23,718 nucleotides of DNA from a virus: IMG/VR virus record IMGVR_UViG_3300030103_001814, positions 1-23,718 of that record; one strand, given 5' to 3'. Position numbers and translations under genes: made by a program. The notes beneath the pieces are model-generated. The model was given only the letters and a program-made list of their open reading frames with translations. It ran no database searches and was not told the origin of the DNA. Positions within the stretch are counted from its first letter, which is position 1. Each line of letters starts with the position of its first letter. This document shows, piece by piece, positions 2,203-13,299 of the stretch.

Positions 2203-3811
2203 ATTTACTCTCCTGTAAGTAAACAAAATAATCTTCTCCCATAGGGTAGTTATATTGATGATCGGTTGATAATAAATGTAATGTATCTTTAGCCCTTGTT
2301 GCTCCTGTATAGTACACTCGTTTTTCGTCAGATTGTTCTTCTCGGTTCTTATGACTAAAAGCAGAAGGCCAGTTTGTTTTTGAGTACAATAAAACATTGT
2401 CCGCCTCTCCACCTTTGACCGAATGAATGGTGTCAATAATAATTTGTGGTTCTTTATCTAAAGCTTTTTGTCCGTAATTTTTTAACAAACGCACAAAATA
2501 ATTTACTTGTTCAGGTTTAAAGTTACGCTGTAACACTTTCCACCATACTAGTTCTTTTGTTTCCACAGGTAAATCAAGACCACAAAACTCAACCAAATAA
2601 TCAAAATCATAGATATCAGCATTTGGCATTTTCAACCAAAACTTTTGAGTTCTATAATCTGGATCTTTTATATCACGCAAGTATTGATACATAGTTTCCG
2701 CTGACTCCCGGTTCAATGGTTTTTGGTTAGACAAACGAGTCCAGGCTTTAATTGCAATCCATTGTTTTTTATCAAAAGACTTTGTGCCAGAGTTGTTAGA
2801 AAAATATAAACCTGATTCTTTAGCACACATACGCAATTCATTCACTGTTGTGTTGACACGACCTAAAATATACCAAGTACCTTTGAGTTCTGTAATTGGA
2901 ACTTCTTGAAAACTTAAATATCGTTTTACCGTGCCTTGTTTGTCTTGACAGTCGTATTCTTTTTCAACACTGTCTAAAATACCACGGCGAATAACTTTAG
3001 AAAAATGATGTATTGCCTCACCAAAACGGCGAGTCTTTCTTAAGATAACCTTTCTCCCAGGAAAGTAAGTTGTGAAGTATTTTGGATCTGCACCATTCCA
3101 ACGGTAAATACCTTGATCATCATCACCCGCTAAATAAATGCGTTTTACATTGTCCGCCATTTTGTAAATGACTGACCACTGCAATGGTGTAAAGTCTTGT
3201 GCTTCATCTAAAATTAAAACATCTAGAGGTGGAAAGTTTATTTCATCTACTGCTCTTAAAATCATGTCCGTAAAATCTATAAACGAATCTTTTTTATAGT
3301 GCTCGTAAGTTGATATCTTTCGTAAATAAATATCCATATTATCTTTTTTGTACGACTCTTTCTTATAAGTTAGTCTTGGATCTTCCATCATGTTCCGTGC
3401 TTTGTCATACACACCCAACGACCAATCCTTATAAGTAAAGTTATCATCAGCTAAACGAGTGTCAGATGTTTTAATAATCTTAGCTTCCATAGCATAGTCC
3501 AACATACAGTTCTTTGGATCAAACACTTCTTCTTTGAAGTAACGACGACAATATTTATGTAATGTCTTGAAACGAGTAAAGTCTTCTGTTGTAAACTGTG
3601 GAAAGGCAGCTAATGCTCTATCTCGTGCTGTGTTAACAGCTTTATTGGTAAATGAAATAAAAGCAATGTTGTTTGGGTGCACCCCTTTTTTCAAATAACC
3701 TTTTAATACACGCTCTATCAAAGTGTGTGTTTTACCTGTACCTGGTGGACCAAATATCTTAATGGTCTTGTGGTGCAGAGCTTTCTGTTTTTCCAGTCCT
3801 GAATTTTGCAT
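2192..3811 (-). CDS. UvrD/PcrA-like superfamily 1 DNA helicase
   Basis: This is a 539-aa ATP-dependent DNA helicase of superfamily 1. Walker A is GPPGTGKT (residues 21-28). The Walker B box is DEAQD (202-206). Motif III is GDDDQGIYRW (229-238). Motif V-like HSVKGGEADNV lies at 463-473 and motif VI VYYTGATRA at 499-507. It is shorter than cellular UvrD (about 720 aa). It sits between primase and polymerase genes and probably unwinds DNA for the phage polymerase. The ATG at 3811 is preferred; an in-frame GTG at 3832 would add 7 residues. Neither has a clear Shine-Dalgarno sequence. The gene overlaps the primase end by 53 nt, and that overlap stops just before the codons for Walker A. Confidence 0.93.
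   Translation of the reverse strand: MQNSGLEKQKALHHKTIKIFGPPGTGKTHTLIERVLKGYLKKGVHPNNIAFISFTNKAVNTARDRALAAFPQFTTEDFTRFKTLHKYCRRYFKEEVFDPKNCMLDYAMEAKIIKTSDTRLADDNFTYKDWSLGVYDKARNMMEDPRLTYKKESYKKDNMDIYLRKISTYEHYKKDSFIDFTDMILRAVDEINFPPLDVLILDEAQDFTPLQWSVIYKMADNVKRIYLAGDDDQGIYRWNGADPKYFTTYFPGRKVILRKTRRFGEAIHHFSKVIRRGILDSVEKEYDCQDKQGTVKRYLSFQEVPITELKGTWYILGRVNTTVNELRMCAKESGLYFSNNSGTKSFDKKQWIAIKAWTRLSNQKPLNRESAETMYQYLRDIKDPDYRTQKFWLKMPNADIYDFDYLVEFCGLDLPVETKELVWWKVLQRNFKPEQVNYFVRLLKNYGQKALDKEPQIIIDTIHSVKGGEADNVLLYSKTNWPSAFSHKNREEQSDEKRVYYTGATRAKDTLHLLSTDHQYNYPMGEDYFVYLQESKYEQ
2208..2214 (-). promoter_or_regulatory. Ribosome binding site of the DNA polymerase gene
   Basis: AGGAGAG sits 5 nt before the ATG at 2202. 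This decides the start against the longer open frame that begins at 2436 inside the helicase gene. Confidence 0.8.
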
Positions 3812-9071: not shown

Positions 9072-9807
9072 TTCTTATTGTCTTGTTGTATTTAATTGTT
9101 TCCTCAATAATACTTAATTTTGTGGAAAAATACAAAGCTGAAGCATAAATAGCATTAATATCTTTGATTAAACAACTTCCGCCAAAACCACGCTCTTTGG
9201 TTACTAAACTGTGAGAACTGCCGATACGTGGATCCCCGGTAATCGCTTTTCTCACTTGGTTGTAATCTAAACCCGATGCTGTGCATAAGTCATAGACTTG
9301 ATTGAAAAACGACACCTTCAAAGCTAAAAAACTATTTCTAAAATATTTCCCCAGGATTAATTCTTCTGGTTCAAATACTTCAACATAAGGTGCAAAATAT
9401 ATTTTTTGAAAAATTTTTGTCCAAAAAGGTATTTCGTCTCCACCAATCAACACATGTTCACAATTTTTTACATCTTCAAGACTGGTTTTTTCTCGTAGGA
9501 ACTCTGGTGAAAAAGCCATTTTTTTTTCATAAGTTTTTTTGCAATGTCTCCAACCTTCTAAAGAAATCGTGCTTTTGATTAAAATGGGTACATCGGGACA
9601 AGCACGAATCACTTCGTATACATTACGCATGTCACAAACACCGCCATTGCCCTGTGGCGTGGACACACATACGATGACTGCATCACTATCCTCTTTTATT
9701 TTATTATTAGTATATTTCGGATCTACAATTTCTATTTCGTAATGTGGAGACAAAATAGATTCAAATGCCTTACCGACATACCCGTAACCTACAATGATAA
9801 TTTTCAT
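9052..9807 (-). CDS. Shortened UDP-glucose/GDP-mannose dehydrogenase-like protein
   Basis: This 251-aa NAD-dependent nucleotide-sugar dehydrogenase relative has the Rossmann start GYGYVG (7-12), SPEFLRE (100-106), the central KYFRNSFLALKVSFFNQ helix (154-170) and the catalytic GFGGSC (Cys212) followed by KD. Typical UDP-glucose 6-dehydrogenases have about 390-450 residues. The C-terminal UDP-binding domain is missing here and there is no room for it before the next gene. The canonical NE at the end of the central helix is NQ. It may oxidise a nucleotide sugar using a complete site formed by a dimer, or have a changed substrate. The ATG at 9807 overlaps the preceding stop as ATGA. Confidence 0.9.
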   Translation of the reverse strand: MKIIIVGYGYVGKAFESILSPHYEIEIVDPKYTNNKIKEDSDAVIVCVSTPQGNGGVCDMRNVYEVIRACPDVPILIKSTISLEGWRHCKKTYEKKMAFSPEFLREKTSLEDVKNCEHVLIGGDEIPFWTKIFQKIYFAPYVEVFEPEELILGKYFRNSFLALKVSFFNQVYDLCTASGLDYNQVRKAITGDPRIGSSHSLVTKERGFGGSCLIKDINAIYASALYFSTKLSIIEETIKYNKTIRNENNKE

Positions 9808-10490
9808 TTTTTGTTTTTATCTTCAGGTGCATACAAGTTGTTAAAAGTATACTCCCAATCCATGTAACTGTCATGTGCTTCTGCTTTATGTGTCCATTGT
9901 GACGGTATGAAATCAGGTGGTCCGTTGCCCGTGACCCACATAGCAGGAGAGGTGACTCTTACTCTGTTGTTTGGTAATGCTACAAAACAACCTTTCCAGG
10001 GTCCTTCAGTCAAGGCTAGAACATGAGATTGTTTGTGTTGAGCTGGATCGTCTGCTATTTCACTATTAGTGTAGTCCACGGTGAAATAATACTTAGCGGT
10101 GTAAAACTCACCTTCAATACGAGCCAACCAAGGACTAGAACTTGTTCTGTCAAATACAACAATAGAATGATCCCTGGAGGACACATCCCAAGGTTGAGCG
10201 ATATGTGTTGGCATAGGTGGTGGCATCTGATCTAAAGGTTCATCTTCAACTAAGGCGGTGATTGGCATACGAGCCCACATAGCACCACCATGAGGATTCT
10301 CTAAACGATTCTCCTCGTCTTCACAACCAGTAAAGATAACTTGAAAACTTAAACAACGATCTGGAATACAATTAACTGCGATAACATAACAGTGTAGGAA
10401 CTCACCATGATAAGCACGATGGTTGTGTGTAAATTCTTTTCTTACCCAAGCTTTTAAAACTAAAGGTATGTTTGATATTAAATGTGACAA
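9804..10490 (-). CDS. Unassigned conserved-looking phage protein with TTG start
   Basis: This 228-aa protein is of unknown function. It is rich in Trp, Pro and His, with four cysteines (C29, C36, C45, C56) in the first quarter. No signal peptide or membrane segment is seen. Patches such as GGAMWARMPITALV and GPWKGCFVALPNNRVRV look like beta strands of a compact fold. The first candidate start is TTG at 10490, 2 nt after the stop of the preceding gene, and no ATG occurs until far inside the protein. Translation is probably coupled to that gene. Its end overlaps the dehydrogenase ATG by 4 nt. Proteins of this kind recur, as I remember, in uncultured marine phages without a known role. Confidence 0.8.
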   Translation of the reverse strand: MSHLISNIPLVLKAWVRKEFTHNHRAYHGEFLHCYVIAVNCIPDRCLSFQVIFTGCEDEENRLENPHGGAMWARMPITALVEDEPLDQMPPPMPTHIAQPWDVSSRDHSIVVFDRTSSSPWLARIEGEFYTAKYYFTVDYTNSEIADDPAQHKQSHVLALTEGPWKGCFVALPNNRVRVTSPAMWVTGNGPPDFIPSQWTHKAEAHDSYMDWEYTFNNLYAPEDKNKK

Positions 10491-10492
10491 AT

Positions 10493-10708
10493 TTAAGCTC
10501 TAGAAACCTTCATCCCTAATCTTTTTGCAGCTGCTTTTAGTTGAGCCACGGTCATTGGTTTTACACCACCTTTACCCGTGCCTTTAGAATAGCCTTTAGC
10601 CATTTTACCAGCTTTAGCTTTCATCATTTTAGCTCCGCCTTTAGCGTAGCCTTTAGCCATTTTACCGCCTCTGGCTCTCATTACTTTTGAATTACCTTTA
10701 GTTTTCAT
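10493..10708 (-). CDS. Small Lys/Gly-rich repeat protein, possible nucleic-acid binder
   Basis: This 71-aa, very basic protein has two copies of GKMAKGY(A/S)KG at residues 15-24 and 34-43, 19 residues apart, linked by short Lys/Met stretches. The tail MTVAQLKAAAKRLGMKV (52-68) resembles the first half of a SAP or Rho-N helix pair, a known nucleic-acid-binding motif; that comparison is inferred. AGGAG precedes the ATG at 10708. It sits directly after the holin-like gene. Possible roles are DNA binding or membrane/cell-wall interaction. Its small size, composition and repeats give little for family assignment. Confidence 0.83.
   Translation of the reverse strand: MKTKGNSKVMRARGGKMAKGYAKGGAKMMKAKAGKMAKGYSKGTGKGGVKPMTVAQLKAAAKRLGMKVSRA
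10580..10666 (-). repeat. Two 30-bp direct repeats, 57 bp apart, inside the Lys/Gly-rich gene
   Basis: Positions 10580-10609 and 10637-10666 are identical at 28 of 30 bases, including a 20-bp exact match. They are in frame and give the duplicated GKMAKGY motif. The 57-bp period (19 codons) suggests a duplication within the gene. Confidence 0.85.
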
Positions 10709-10719
10709 TTAAATAACTC

Positions 10720-11097
10720 CTACTTAGTAAATTTACCAATTGATTTTAAACCAAAACTGGCTCCAATACTAGCCATAATTGACCATTGTAACCACTCTGG
10801 AAATGTGCCTAAAAACTCTATGCCCCTGGCAACATAGGGTTGAAAATAAGGTATGAAGCTAAAAATAATAATGGCTATAAACGTGAGAGTCCAAGCTTCG
10901 TCTTTCCAGCTATCATCAGAGGCTTTTGCCATGGTGGTCTCCCATTCAACCTTACCTTCCGCAACCTTCTTCTGTACAGCAGTTTTTGCGTCAATCTCTG
11001 CTATTTTTAAATCAGATTTAGCTTTAGCTTTCTTTGCACTATGTTCAAAATAACCACCCACAGCTTTTGATAATCCATTAACAATAAGTCCAATCAT
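10720..11097 (-). CDS. Holin-like membrane protein
   Basis: This 125-aa protein starts with a short hydrophobic or amphipathic segment (2-9) and a charged Lys/Ala/Glu helix (20-60). A conserved-looking WKDEAW (64-69) leads into a membrane segment at 70-85, and a second membrane segment lies at 103-118. The end is basic. The architecture resembles three-segment holins of the gene-transfer-agent type (Pfam GTA_holin_3TM), in which a Trp-Asp-Glu-Trp-like motif stands before the first strong membrane helix; I recall this rather than having searched it. Such proteins make the membrane lesion that starts lysis. GGAGAAAG precedes the ATG, which overlaps the previous stop by 4 nt. Confidence 0.8.
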   Translation of the reverse strand: MIGLIVNGLSKAVGGYFEHSAKKAKAKSDLKIAEIDAKTAVQKKVAEGKVEWETTMAKASDDSWKDEAWTLTFIAIIIFSFIPYFQPYVARGIEFLGTFPEWLQWSIMASIGASFGLKSIGKFTK

Positions 11098-11324
11098 TTT
11101 ACTTTCTCCAAAATAGTATCTAATTTTTCGCTGTTCTTTTGCACTTGAACTTTTATATATTCTAGCTCTACTTTAAGTCGGGTAATATCTTCTATCTTTT
11201 CTGACATCTTCTCTTGTGTTTCTTCTACGGCATACAAACGGTTCATACTAGCACCCCAGGCTACGCCAACCAAAACCAACATTGGTAGAACTTGTGTTAT
11301 AACTTTTGTGTCCATCTTAATCAT
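11094..11324 (-). CDS. Small membrane-anchored coiled-coil protein
   Basis: This 76-aa protein has one membrane segment (about 8-26) followed by a charged helix (34-76) with coiled-coil heptads such as EKIEDITRLKVELEYI. The ATG at 11324 overlaps the upstream stop as ATGA, and its own stop overlaps the holin-like ATG in the same way, so three genes are tightly coupled. The form, N-terminal anchor plus periplasmic coil, is that of inner-membrane spanins or holin partners. No sequence motif proves this role. Confidence 0.8.
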   Translation of the reverse strand: MIKMDTKVITQVLPMLVLVGVAWGASMNRLYAVEETQEKMSEKIEDITRLKVELEYIKVQVQKNSEKLDTILEKVK

Positions 11325-11662
11325 TTGCCTAGGGGGTTGTCGTTAATAATGTCGTAAACTTTGGATAGTTCTCTTTCCATCCAAGCAGAGAGTTTATCTT
11401 CCATGTCTCCCATTTCTGTATCCATTTTCTCAAAGCTTTCCCAAACATCATCAATGTTTTCAATATTGAATTGTATTCGTTCTTCTGCTTGAGTAAGTCT
11501 GTCATTTAATGTACCTGTGTCACTACTGGCTATACTACCTTCCATAGCCACTAAACGAGTGCTTAGGTCTGACATCCACCATACGAACCCACCTGCTGCT
11601 GGAACTACTGATAAGACTATCGTAAGTAGAACCGCTGGTGATAGCACTAATGTCTTGCTCAT
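11321..11662 (-). CDS. Membrane-anchored coiled-coil protein, inner-spanin candidate
   Basis: This 113-aa protein has an N-terminal membrane segment (9-29, ending in FVWWM) and then a long acidic helix (35-110) rich in Glu, Asp and Met that could form a coiled coil. AGGAG with good spacing precedes the ATG at 11662, which makes the start convincing although the first 128 nt also encode the end of the 450-aa secreted protein in another frame. It lies next to the holin-like gene. A one-helix anchor with a periplasmic rod suits an inner spanin, but no lipoprotein partner is visible nearby. Confidence 0.8.
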   Translation of the reverse strand: MSKTLVLSPAVLLTIVLSVVPAAGGFVWWMSDLSTRLVAMEGSIASSDTGTLNDRLTQAEERIQFNIENIDDVWESFEKMDTEMGDMEDKLSAWMERELSKVYDIINDNPLGK

Positions 11663-12887
11663 ATATCATCTCCTGTGTCAGTGACACTGTTTCTAATATT
11701 GTAATCGTTTGCGGTATTTCTTGCAATCCAATCAAATTGACCATATCTACTTGCTCAATCCCTGTATTCTTTTTAGTAGTTTCAGAAACTTGAGATTTAG
11801 ATTGCTTAGGCTTTTGTTTAGTTTCAGCTTTAGGCTCATTTTTTGATTCTGCAACTTCTGTTTCTTCTTCTGATTCGGCTTTTTCTTCTTCTTCAGAGCT
11901 CTCTGTTTCTTCAACTTCTTCATTTTCAGCAAGATCTTCCTCCATGTCAGTTTCTTTTAATTCTTCTGGTTGTTCTACTACTTCTTCAGTTACCTCTGCA
12001 ACTTCCTCTACTTCTATTTCTTGTATTTCTGGAATCTCCTCTACAATTTCAATTTCTTGTGGTACTTCAATCACTGTTGGTATTTCTATTTCAACAGAGG
12101 GTAAATCAGGTAACTCAGGTAAATTATTTACAGATACTTCTGGTTGCACTGGAGTATCAATTATTACATCAGTTACAATTTCAGTGTCTAAACTAAGACC
12201 TTCAATCACAGTGTTTTCTATAATAGGTTCTATAACAGTTTCTACAATCGGTTCTACAACAATTTCTACAATGGGTTCTACTATCACAGGTGCAATATAT
12301 TCTTCAATAGTTAAAGTAAGACTAATATTATCTACAATTGGGCCATACCAGTTACTGCTATTGCCTGTGTCGTCTCCCGCAACATTAAGGTTTATATTTA
12401 AATTGTCAGTATTAAAATCACCTGTAACATCTTCAGTAAAAGAATAATCACTCCACCCATCTTCATAAGGCACAGCAGTTGTATTGCTAATAACTTCTGC
12501 GGTATCAGTTGAAGTCAAGGTAACCGTGTTAGTTACCGTATCATCAGCACCAGCATTACACCATTGACTGCCTGAATTACCACAACCAATGCTTTGAAAG
12601 TTCATGTGTATTTGTTTGACGATGTGATTGTCAGGTAGTTTATCCATGTCTATATCTTGACTAATGTAACCATCTTGATATCTAAATCTTATACTTTTAG
12701 ATGCAGAATCAGAATAGGTGTTTGGATCACGCTTGACTTTGTTTTGATTATTATCAGACAACTCCCAATCAGAAGTATCGGTAGTAAAGCTGTCGTTATT
12801 CAGTAGGTTGTCCGTAGTCGTTTCTGCGTGGCTTGTTAACACCACCATGAACAACATTAGGATTGACCATAATATGATTTTTGTCAT
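11535..12887 (-). CDS. Secreted protein with beta-sandwich-like domain and acidic repetitive stalk
   Basis: This 450-aa protein has a signal peptide at residues 1-21 (cleavage after SHA). Residues 26-195 look like a carbohydrate-binding or galactose-binding beta sandwich: NLLNNDSFTTDTSDWELS at the start, DGWSDYSF in the middle and a paired Cys102/Cys110. Residues 199-229 hold Val-Glu-Pro-Ile repeats. A Pro/Glu/Ile/Val stretch follows, then an almost purely acidic part (312-348), a Lys-rich linker (350-375) and a less biased end with an SSSSS run (427-431). No catalytic residues are recognised. It may span the periplasm or sit on the virion. Both ends overlap neighbouring genes, by 92 nt at the start and 128 nt at the end. 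The signal peptide supports the ATG at 12887. Confidence 0.85.
   Translation of the reverse strand: MTKIILWSILMLFMVVLTSHAETTTDNLLNNDSFTTDTSDWELSDNNQNKVKRDPNTYSDSASKSIRFRYQDGYISQDIDMDKLPDNHIVKQIHMNFQSIGCGNSGSQWCNAGADDTVTNTVTLTSTDTAEVISNTTAVPYEDGWSDYSFTEDVTGDFNTDNLNINLNVAGDDTGNSSNWYGPIVDNISLTLTIEEYIAPVIVEPIVEIVVEPIVETVIEPIIENTVIEGLSLDTEIVTDVIIDTPVQPEVSVNNLPELPDLPSVEIEIPTVIEVPQEIEIVEEIPEIQEIEVEEVAEVTEEVVEQPEELKETDMEEDLAENEEVEETESSEEEEKAESEEETEVAESKNEPKAETKQKPKQSKSQVSETTKKNTGIEQVDMVNLIGLQEIPQTITILETVSLTQEMIYEQDISAITSGSTYDSLISSSSSRWVRMVDVRPKHSFSGYGR
12226..12285 (-). repeat. 24-bp tandem repeats encoding Val-Glu-Pro-Ile units
   Basis: Two full 24-bp units (12226-12249, 12250-12273) and a half unit (12274-12285) share the pattern ggttcta-y-aaca-r-tttctacaat on the plus strand. 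They encode eight-residue units like VEPIVETV in the secreted 450-aa protein. A more diverged copy lies just below 12226. Confidence 0.75.
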
Positions 12888-13299
12888 TGATAATACCTAG
12901 TTCTATATACTTAGCTTTAGCTTCCTTACCGACTAAACCGTCTATTGGACACGGAGACCCAGCAGCTAACATTGCACGAAATACTCGGATGTCTTGACAG
13001 AGAACTGCGGTGGCCGATACCTTGAGGCCAAGCTGTGCTAAACCCCTACTGAGCTTTAAACGCTCACAATTCATGTCTCTTACATGGGTACCAAAACTAC
13101 CAGAGAAAATACCTGTGCCCACAGCACCACTTCTTACTACGACACAAACATCATTACCACTGCCGATAGATAACCCAGGACTTATTGCCGAAGGTGGCGG
13201 TTGATCTTTATATCGGATTGTGGTTTCATTGCCGAAAATTAATGAACTAAAACTTAACAGTGAGATAAGTAAGAATAGATTGATAAGTAACCTAATCAT
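12796..13299 (-). CDS. Secreted four-cysteine protein of unknown function
   Basis: This 167-aa protein has a strongly hydrophobic N-terminal signal (1-23: MIRLLINLFLLISLL then SLIFG). There is no lipobox cysteine, so it is not an evident lipoprotein. A Pro-rich linker follows, then a Gly/Val-rich domain with four cysteines at 52, 78, 101 and 117, suited to two disulfides in the periplasm. The end (130-167) is polar and is encoded partly in the 92-nt overlap with the next gene. The ATG at 13299 lies 1 nt after the stop of the large virion gene, without a clear Shine-Dalgarno sequence. Its position opens the lysis/secreted block. The fold and role are not recognised. Confidence 0.82.
   Translation of the reverse strand: MIRLLINLFLLISLLSFSSLIFGNETTIRYKDQPPPSAISPGLSIGSGNDVCVVVRSGAVGTGIFSGSFGTHVRDMNCERLKLSRGLAQLGLKVSATAVLCQDIRVFRAMLAAGSPCPIDGLVGKEAKAKYIELGIINDKNHIMVNPNVVHGGVNKPRRNDYGQPTE

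Follow-up and report, generated by a model that had tools for sequence, protein, structure and literature searches.

The window, by which we mean the whole 23,718-nt stretch analysed here and most of a 24,377-base virus record, encodes a small polycationic protein (named BASIC; 10493 to 10708, minus strand) that is one member of a large family of ocean phage proteins, apparently not described before, in which the repeats turn over while a 20-aa C-terminal tail persists. The window comes from the contig of a phage that is a relative of pelagiphage HTVC023P. Its DNA polymerase shares 72% identity with the polymerase of this Pelagibacter phage, and the capsid proteins of HTVC023P and of G002, a relative of the window, share 79%. 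Our best guess, offered tentatively, is that BASIC may act on the cell envelope in the manner of a disruptin, as a late cationic factor that depends on the holin; the neighbouring genes hint at a part in bursting the host cell. This guess draws on the observed family with its array turnover, conserved tail, purifying selection, operon partners, slot endolysins and LysM fusions, and from these we infer every functional step.

BASIC begins with ATG and runs for 71 codons. With 17 lysines, four arginines, no aspartate, glutamate or cysteine and a net charge of +21, it is the 71-aa basic protein that the sequence-only reading had described, and both copies of the GKMAKGY motif reported there are present (residues 15-21 and 34-40). 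They lie in two 19-aa units on the minus strand, GGKMAKGYAKGGAKMMKAK (10613 to 10669) and AGKMAKGYSKGTGKGGVKP (10556 to 10612), the latter with a degenerate second half, as delimited by repeat search and family comparison. At the DNA level the repeat search returned adjacent 57-nt copies (10571-10627 and 10628-10684) that are 77% identical; no codon-shuffled version out of 500 scored as high as the ORF does against itself (28.5), and for the protein one residue shuffle out of 1000 did so. The earlier description of two 30-bp repeats lying 57 bp apart thus holds as regards the duplication, but the 57 bp separate the starts of the two copies, and the best conserved part spans about 20-30 nt. An AGGAG ribosome-binding site, read from the sequence 8 nt before the ATG (10717 to 10721, minus strand), overlaps the stop codon of the upstream holin-like gene, which makes translational coupling likely. 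The family is under purifying selection, as a comparison of 13 pairs of relatives gave dN/dS values of 0.04-0.28.

Scanning IMG/VR with the window protein yielded 98 relatives, of which 80 loci were kept, encoding 64 distinct proteins of 56-222 aa (a few cut by contig ends). Their net charge ranges from +17 to +56 (median 27), cysteine is absent in 80/80 and acidic residues are absent in 38/80. GKMxK motifs occur one to four times per relative and successive ones are spaced 19 aa apart in 43 of 65 cases. The copy-number variation among relatives that the sequence-only reading had suggested looking for is real, with indels of unit size: L016 and L004 are identical wherever they align and a single 19-aa stretch sets them apart, and 19-aa indels were found seven times in the 82 pairs with a similarity of 90% or more, together with many indels of other lengths. 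The FTYQGKKY end was found in 5/64 distinct relatives. When bacterial genomes were scanned with relative L010, 161 stretches fitted a pattern and two encode a relative, each on a metagenome-assembled contig, possibly of phage origin. Standard searches can miss the family because low-complexity filters mask its sequence.

Starting from P216, a membrane protein that often precedes BASIC, we found a second type of locus whose basic gene carries KYMSKMAKGG, GTKSYAKAGKMM or KGGTKMMRMS repeats; in L255, L256 and L260, 12-aa GTKSYAKAGKMM repeats follow P216 and replace the KMAKGY array. A scan with a KYMSKMAKGG protein gave 41 loci and further units such as KSKGYKKGGAV. The first-type tail persists in most second-type loci, which makes it the more stable element, with the array turning over; some of the 41 (e.g. 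L315, L319, L324 and L325) are joined to the family by repeats only, because the MTVAQ tail is absent. A profile built solely from five second-type tails and run on 26 contigs finds the first-type gene in 13 of the 22 BASIC-carrying contigs (i-E 2e-10 to 0.005) and no other gene below 0.28. It misses G007, G012, G013, G014, G017, G018, G020 and G021, and also G005, whose BASIC gene is absent from the gene calls. Lysis-related genes are frequent in this second type: a Phage_lysozyme gene lies alongside in 20 of 40 loci, and P216, a 2TM protein, phrog_3704, the basic gene and lysozyme occur together in 18 of 40. L314 has the order phrog_3704, basic gene, holin-like, 2TM, lysozyme, and in L265 P216 comes before the holin-like and lysozyme genes.

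The tail of BASIC, MTVAQLKAAAKRLGMKVSRA (10496 to 10555, minus strand), contains one confident predicted helix at residues 54-63 (AlphaFold pLDDT 77-79), and the array was modelled at a pLDDT near 54 with a low-confidence helix at 25-35. Across the family, the tail profile matches 43/64 distinct relatives, in 39 of them at the C terminus; the other 21 are without a match, and several of these have other C termini. The sequence-only reading would have given up its proposal if neither repeats nor tail helix were conserved among homologues; as seen here, the repeats are kept and the tail is found in two-thirds of them. Its comparison of the tail with half a SAP/Rho-N motif fared worse. Residues 52-69 align to positions 5-22 of the 37-position SAP model (PF02037), with 16.9 bits (E 0.0051) against a gathering cut-off of 23.9 bits; among eight other family members scanned, L010 scored 13.4 bits, again below the cut-off, and the other seven gave no match. 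SAP domains consist of two helices with a loop between them, and BASIC ends after the first helix. For Rho-N there was no Pfam match at E up to 1 in the window protein and eight relatives, a search in which HMMER filters drop most weak matches. The SAP/Rho-N assignment was therefore rejected on the sub-cut-off SAP score, the missing Rho-N match and the single confident helix. A search of PDB sequences with the tail gave no match at E up to 10.

The gene preceding BASIC encodes a membrane protein in all 73 loci with room for one, ending within 260 nt. In 28 loci this is the holin-like protein (gap of 7-11 nt in every case) and in 45 it is P216, which has one TM segment towards its C terminus (29-256 nt); the remaining 7/80 loci lie at contig ends. 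In the window the upstream gene (10720 to 11097, minus strand; 125 aa, phrog_2524) is a plausible rather than proven holin, as endolysin genes come next in many relatives and an hhalign comparison of its family with a set containing a PF11351 (GTA_holin_3TM) member showed weak profile similarity (probability 66, E 5.7e-5, 63 columns). PHROG annotates phrog_2524 as "unknown function", and the protein is unnamed by Pfam or NCBIfam, without a Pfam match. It is followed upstream by a 76-aa protein that, from sequence features, has one N-terminal TM segment (11094 to 11324, minus strand) and a 113-aa protein with a weak Rz-like spanin PHROG match at E 0.017 (11321 to 11662, minus strand). Signal-peptide-like starts were also seen in a 450-aa protein with a net charge of -71 and Glu/Pro/Val-rich stretches (11535-12887, minus strand; cluster c44, in 12/27 contigs) and in a 167-aa protein with a phrog_20531 match at E 3e-8 (12796-13299, minus strand). 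The most constant neighbour lies downstream, a 228-aa phrog_3704 protein (9804 to 10490, minus strand) present in 78/78 first-type loci with room and in 39/40 second-type loci examined. Public labels of phrog_3704 (ferredoxin or PurM) look unreliable.

On a larger scale, three genome contexts can be distinguished. Context A (G002, G003, G004, G008, G010 and G011) has the order portal-like, small basic gene, holin-like, BASIC and phrog_3704, then three genes on to a scaffold-like gene followed by the capsid, where the portal and scaffold labels are putative and come from gene order and size. Context B (the window, G001, G007 and G009) comprises a 1,100-1,190-aa late gene, a secreted protein, small genes, holin-like, BASIC and phrog_3704, and then a UDP-sugar dehydrogenase-like gene and an exonuclease. 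Context C (11 contigs, G012 to G022) comprises a long late gene, usually a 76-aa TM gene, P216, BASIC and an exonuclease, the gene caller having missed phrog_3704 in some contigs; in one of them (G012) a GTA_holin_3TM-matching gene (58 bits) lies distant from BASIC. G005 has the order holin-like, BASIC, phrog_3704.

A survey of the slot after the holin-like gene covered 107 plus-oriented loci, with contigs retrieved in both scans counted twice. The next genes are a basic gene and phrog_3704 in 50 loci, and an M15_4 endolysin, directly or past one 81-aa gene, in 36. Less frequent are a 45-aa TM protein (seven loci), a basic gene only (four), Amidase_2 (one) and a 2TM protein with lysozyme (one, HMO-2011); eight are unassigned, among them L122, in which M15_4 overlaps the holin gene, and L083, which ends inside a BASIC-like gene. 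Representatives of the slot endolysins were confirmed by Pfam. None of the surveyed loci was seen with both a KMAKGY gene and an endolysin in that stretch; in L091 and L147, M15_4 is followed by other basic ORFs. Likewise, M15_4 exceeds its cut-off in 5/29 records, all without BASIC, and in 0/22 BASIC-carrying records, with matches below the cut-off in G017 and G019. The sequence-only reading was right about a helix that is attached to a cationic repeat array and about the probable holin next door, and its surprise at finding a potential nucleic-acid binder there is partly resolved by the membrane-protein gene in front, the endolysins in the same slot of relatives and the LysM fusions. The holin neighbourhood is not accidental; nucleic-acid binding is still conceivable because BASIC lies in the head module of other contigs.

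A separate M15_3-type endolysin was found away from BASIC in all 15 BASIC contigs of at least 48 kb (14 by clustering and G005 separately, the Pfam check, 74 bits, covering the G002 copy only), and we therefore rejected BASIC as an endolysin or its replacement. In 3/15 of these contigs a small TM gene (c63) directly adjoins this endolysin. A crude lipobox scan for o-spanins gave one candidate each in 4/27 contigs, none within 2.5 kb of BASIC in the five contigs checked, and also none in four scanned contigs without BASIC.

In the lysis interpretation, BASIC would be a late, largely unstructured polycationic protein among the phage lysis functions. Without a signal peptide, it would stay in the cytoplasm until the upstream membrane protein (holin-like or P216, themselves with a presumed role in lysis) opens the inner membrane. 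The Lys/Met/Gly array would then bind the negatively charged envelope, either the outer membrane or, where LysM is fused, peptidoglycan, and help to break it in a disruptin-like way, with the conserved C-terminal helix serving for docking or contact. Such an envelope role at lysis is favoured by the slot after the holin, the partner genes for membrane proteins and the fusions to LysM. The idea of an amphipathic helix was kept as weak support only, because the array of the window itself fails: the hydrophobic moment exceeded that of shuffles in 9/14 arrays tested, but 152/2000 shuffles reached that of the window, the arrays of L028 and L256 showed no significant amphipathicity, those of L057 and L073 fell under the shuffle mean, and 3/22 other basic proteins of these phages passed as well. 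Besides this array without significant amphipathicity, the separate M15_3-type endolysin, the six head-module contigs and a phrog_3704 partner more constant than either membrane protein argue against a lysis role, as do the equal lack of spanin candidates in contigs without BASIC and the named phages whose stretches read show no BASIC. We consider it unlikely that, in pelagiphage-type viruses, spanins are replaced by a new class of cationic lysis effectors built from repeat arrays and released by the holin, in which rapidly changing cationic repeats would accompany a conserved C-terminal helix, a fused LysM domain would sometimes direct them to peptidoglycan, and array length and composition would be tuned to the host envelope.

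The main rival explanation, which we hold to be somewhat doubtful, is that BASIC is an internal virion or DNA-condensing protein, a protamine-like neutraliser of packaged DNA whose helix might make a weak contact with DNA or capsid and which may be co-ejected with the genome. The position of BASIC between the portal-like and scaffold/capsid genes in the six context A contigs fits such a role, as do the separate endolysin, the SAP-like helix, even if below the cut-off, and the low-confidence array model, as expected of a flexible DNA-binding tail. Moreover, several other very basic small proteins are encoded between the capsid and tail genes of these phages, and LysM, FTYQGKKY and GGMMKA modules recur in some of them as well as in BASIC variants. 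However, a membrane-protein gene is the nearest upstream gene wherever there is room, LysM fusions are hard to explain on DNA, and the post-holin slot holds an endolysin in relatives. If BASIC is a virion protein after all, it would join the many very basic proteins of these phages that await characterisation.

The constancy of phrog_3704 raises the improbable alternative that both proteins share an intracellular role, e.g. nucleic-acid binding, and that the lysis neighbourhood is incidental. A relative of phrog_3704 in HTVC008M lies between the two ribonucleotide reductase subunit genes, which would agree with this, but the stretches read near phrog_3704 relatives in HTVC008M, S-TIM5, HTVC023P and HTVC027P showed neither a KMAKGY-type motif nor a match to the tail; phrog_3704 can thus be present where BASIC is not, and the AlphaFold model of the phrog_3704 protein was unusable (pLDDT 34). 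Distinctly improbable is a virion-associated ejection factor whose cationic and, in some variants, peptidoglycan-binding segments help ejection proteins to cross the envelope: contexts B and C place BASIC a few genes after 1,000-1,200-aa late genes, similar in position to the gene annotated as DNA transfer protein in DSL-LC04, and the LysM variants would suit this role, but BASIC lies away from those genes in six contigs and is linked to lysozyme in second-type loci.

According to PMC9599517, pelagiphages of the HTVC023P type are widespread. BASIC is not universal, since about 50 kb each of HTVC023P, HTVC027P, 023Pt_psg01 and DSL-LC04 contained no KMAKGY-type gene and no tail match. A tblastn search of named phages with the 71-aa protein and the tail peptide also gave no match, which does not show absence and is probably due to the low-complexity filter and the short query. 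Our literature search returned nothing on the BASIC protein itself, no virion proteome of this phage type and, within the open-licence literature, no account of how HTVC023P-type phages break the SAR11 outer membrane. The terms holin, peptidase M15 and LysM were not found in the main text of PMC9599517, the part of PMC9038755 consulted mentions lysis genes in general terms only, and that of PMC9636201 added nothing on disruptins. A conserved polycation gene in the endolysin slot of relatives, sometimes bearing LysM, is a concrete and testable candidate for the breakage of the SAR11 outer membrane.

Compared with known systems, BASIC resembles SAP (PF02037) over residues 52-69 of its tail and lacks the second half of the domain. 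The LysM motif (PF01476) occurs in 6/64 distinct relatives and was not matched in the window protein; in L066 it reaches 49.5 bits against a cut-off of 20.9, and no catalytic domain was matched in this variant. Other small proteins near the M15_3 endolysin (clusters c8, c18, c27 and c58), some of which share the modules named above, are very basic like BASIC but, unlike it, are not found by the second-type tail profile. One basic protein of 401 aa and net charge +68 (L162, part of G002; 2422-3627, minus strand) has FTYQGKKY and GGMMKA modules as well as a loop resembling dockerin, a weak similarity below threshold, and a C-terminal motif like GGAAIRGxxFxGV recurs in several basic proteins of these phages. 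The closest functional parallel proposed here is the phiKT disruptin, the archetype (Holt et al. 2022), which is a short amphipathic helix according to the part of PMC12819732 consulted. As far as disruptins are portrayed there, they and BASIC are alike in being small cationic phage proteins without a signal peptide, encoded near lysis genes (for BASIC, genes with a presumed lysis role) in phages without obvious spanins. BASIC, known here from its sequence, differs from the phiKT disruptin in its Gly/Met/Lys array of variable length, its conserved tail and, in some relatives, its LysM motif.
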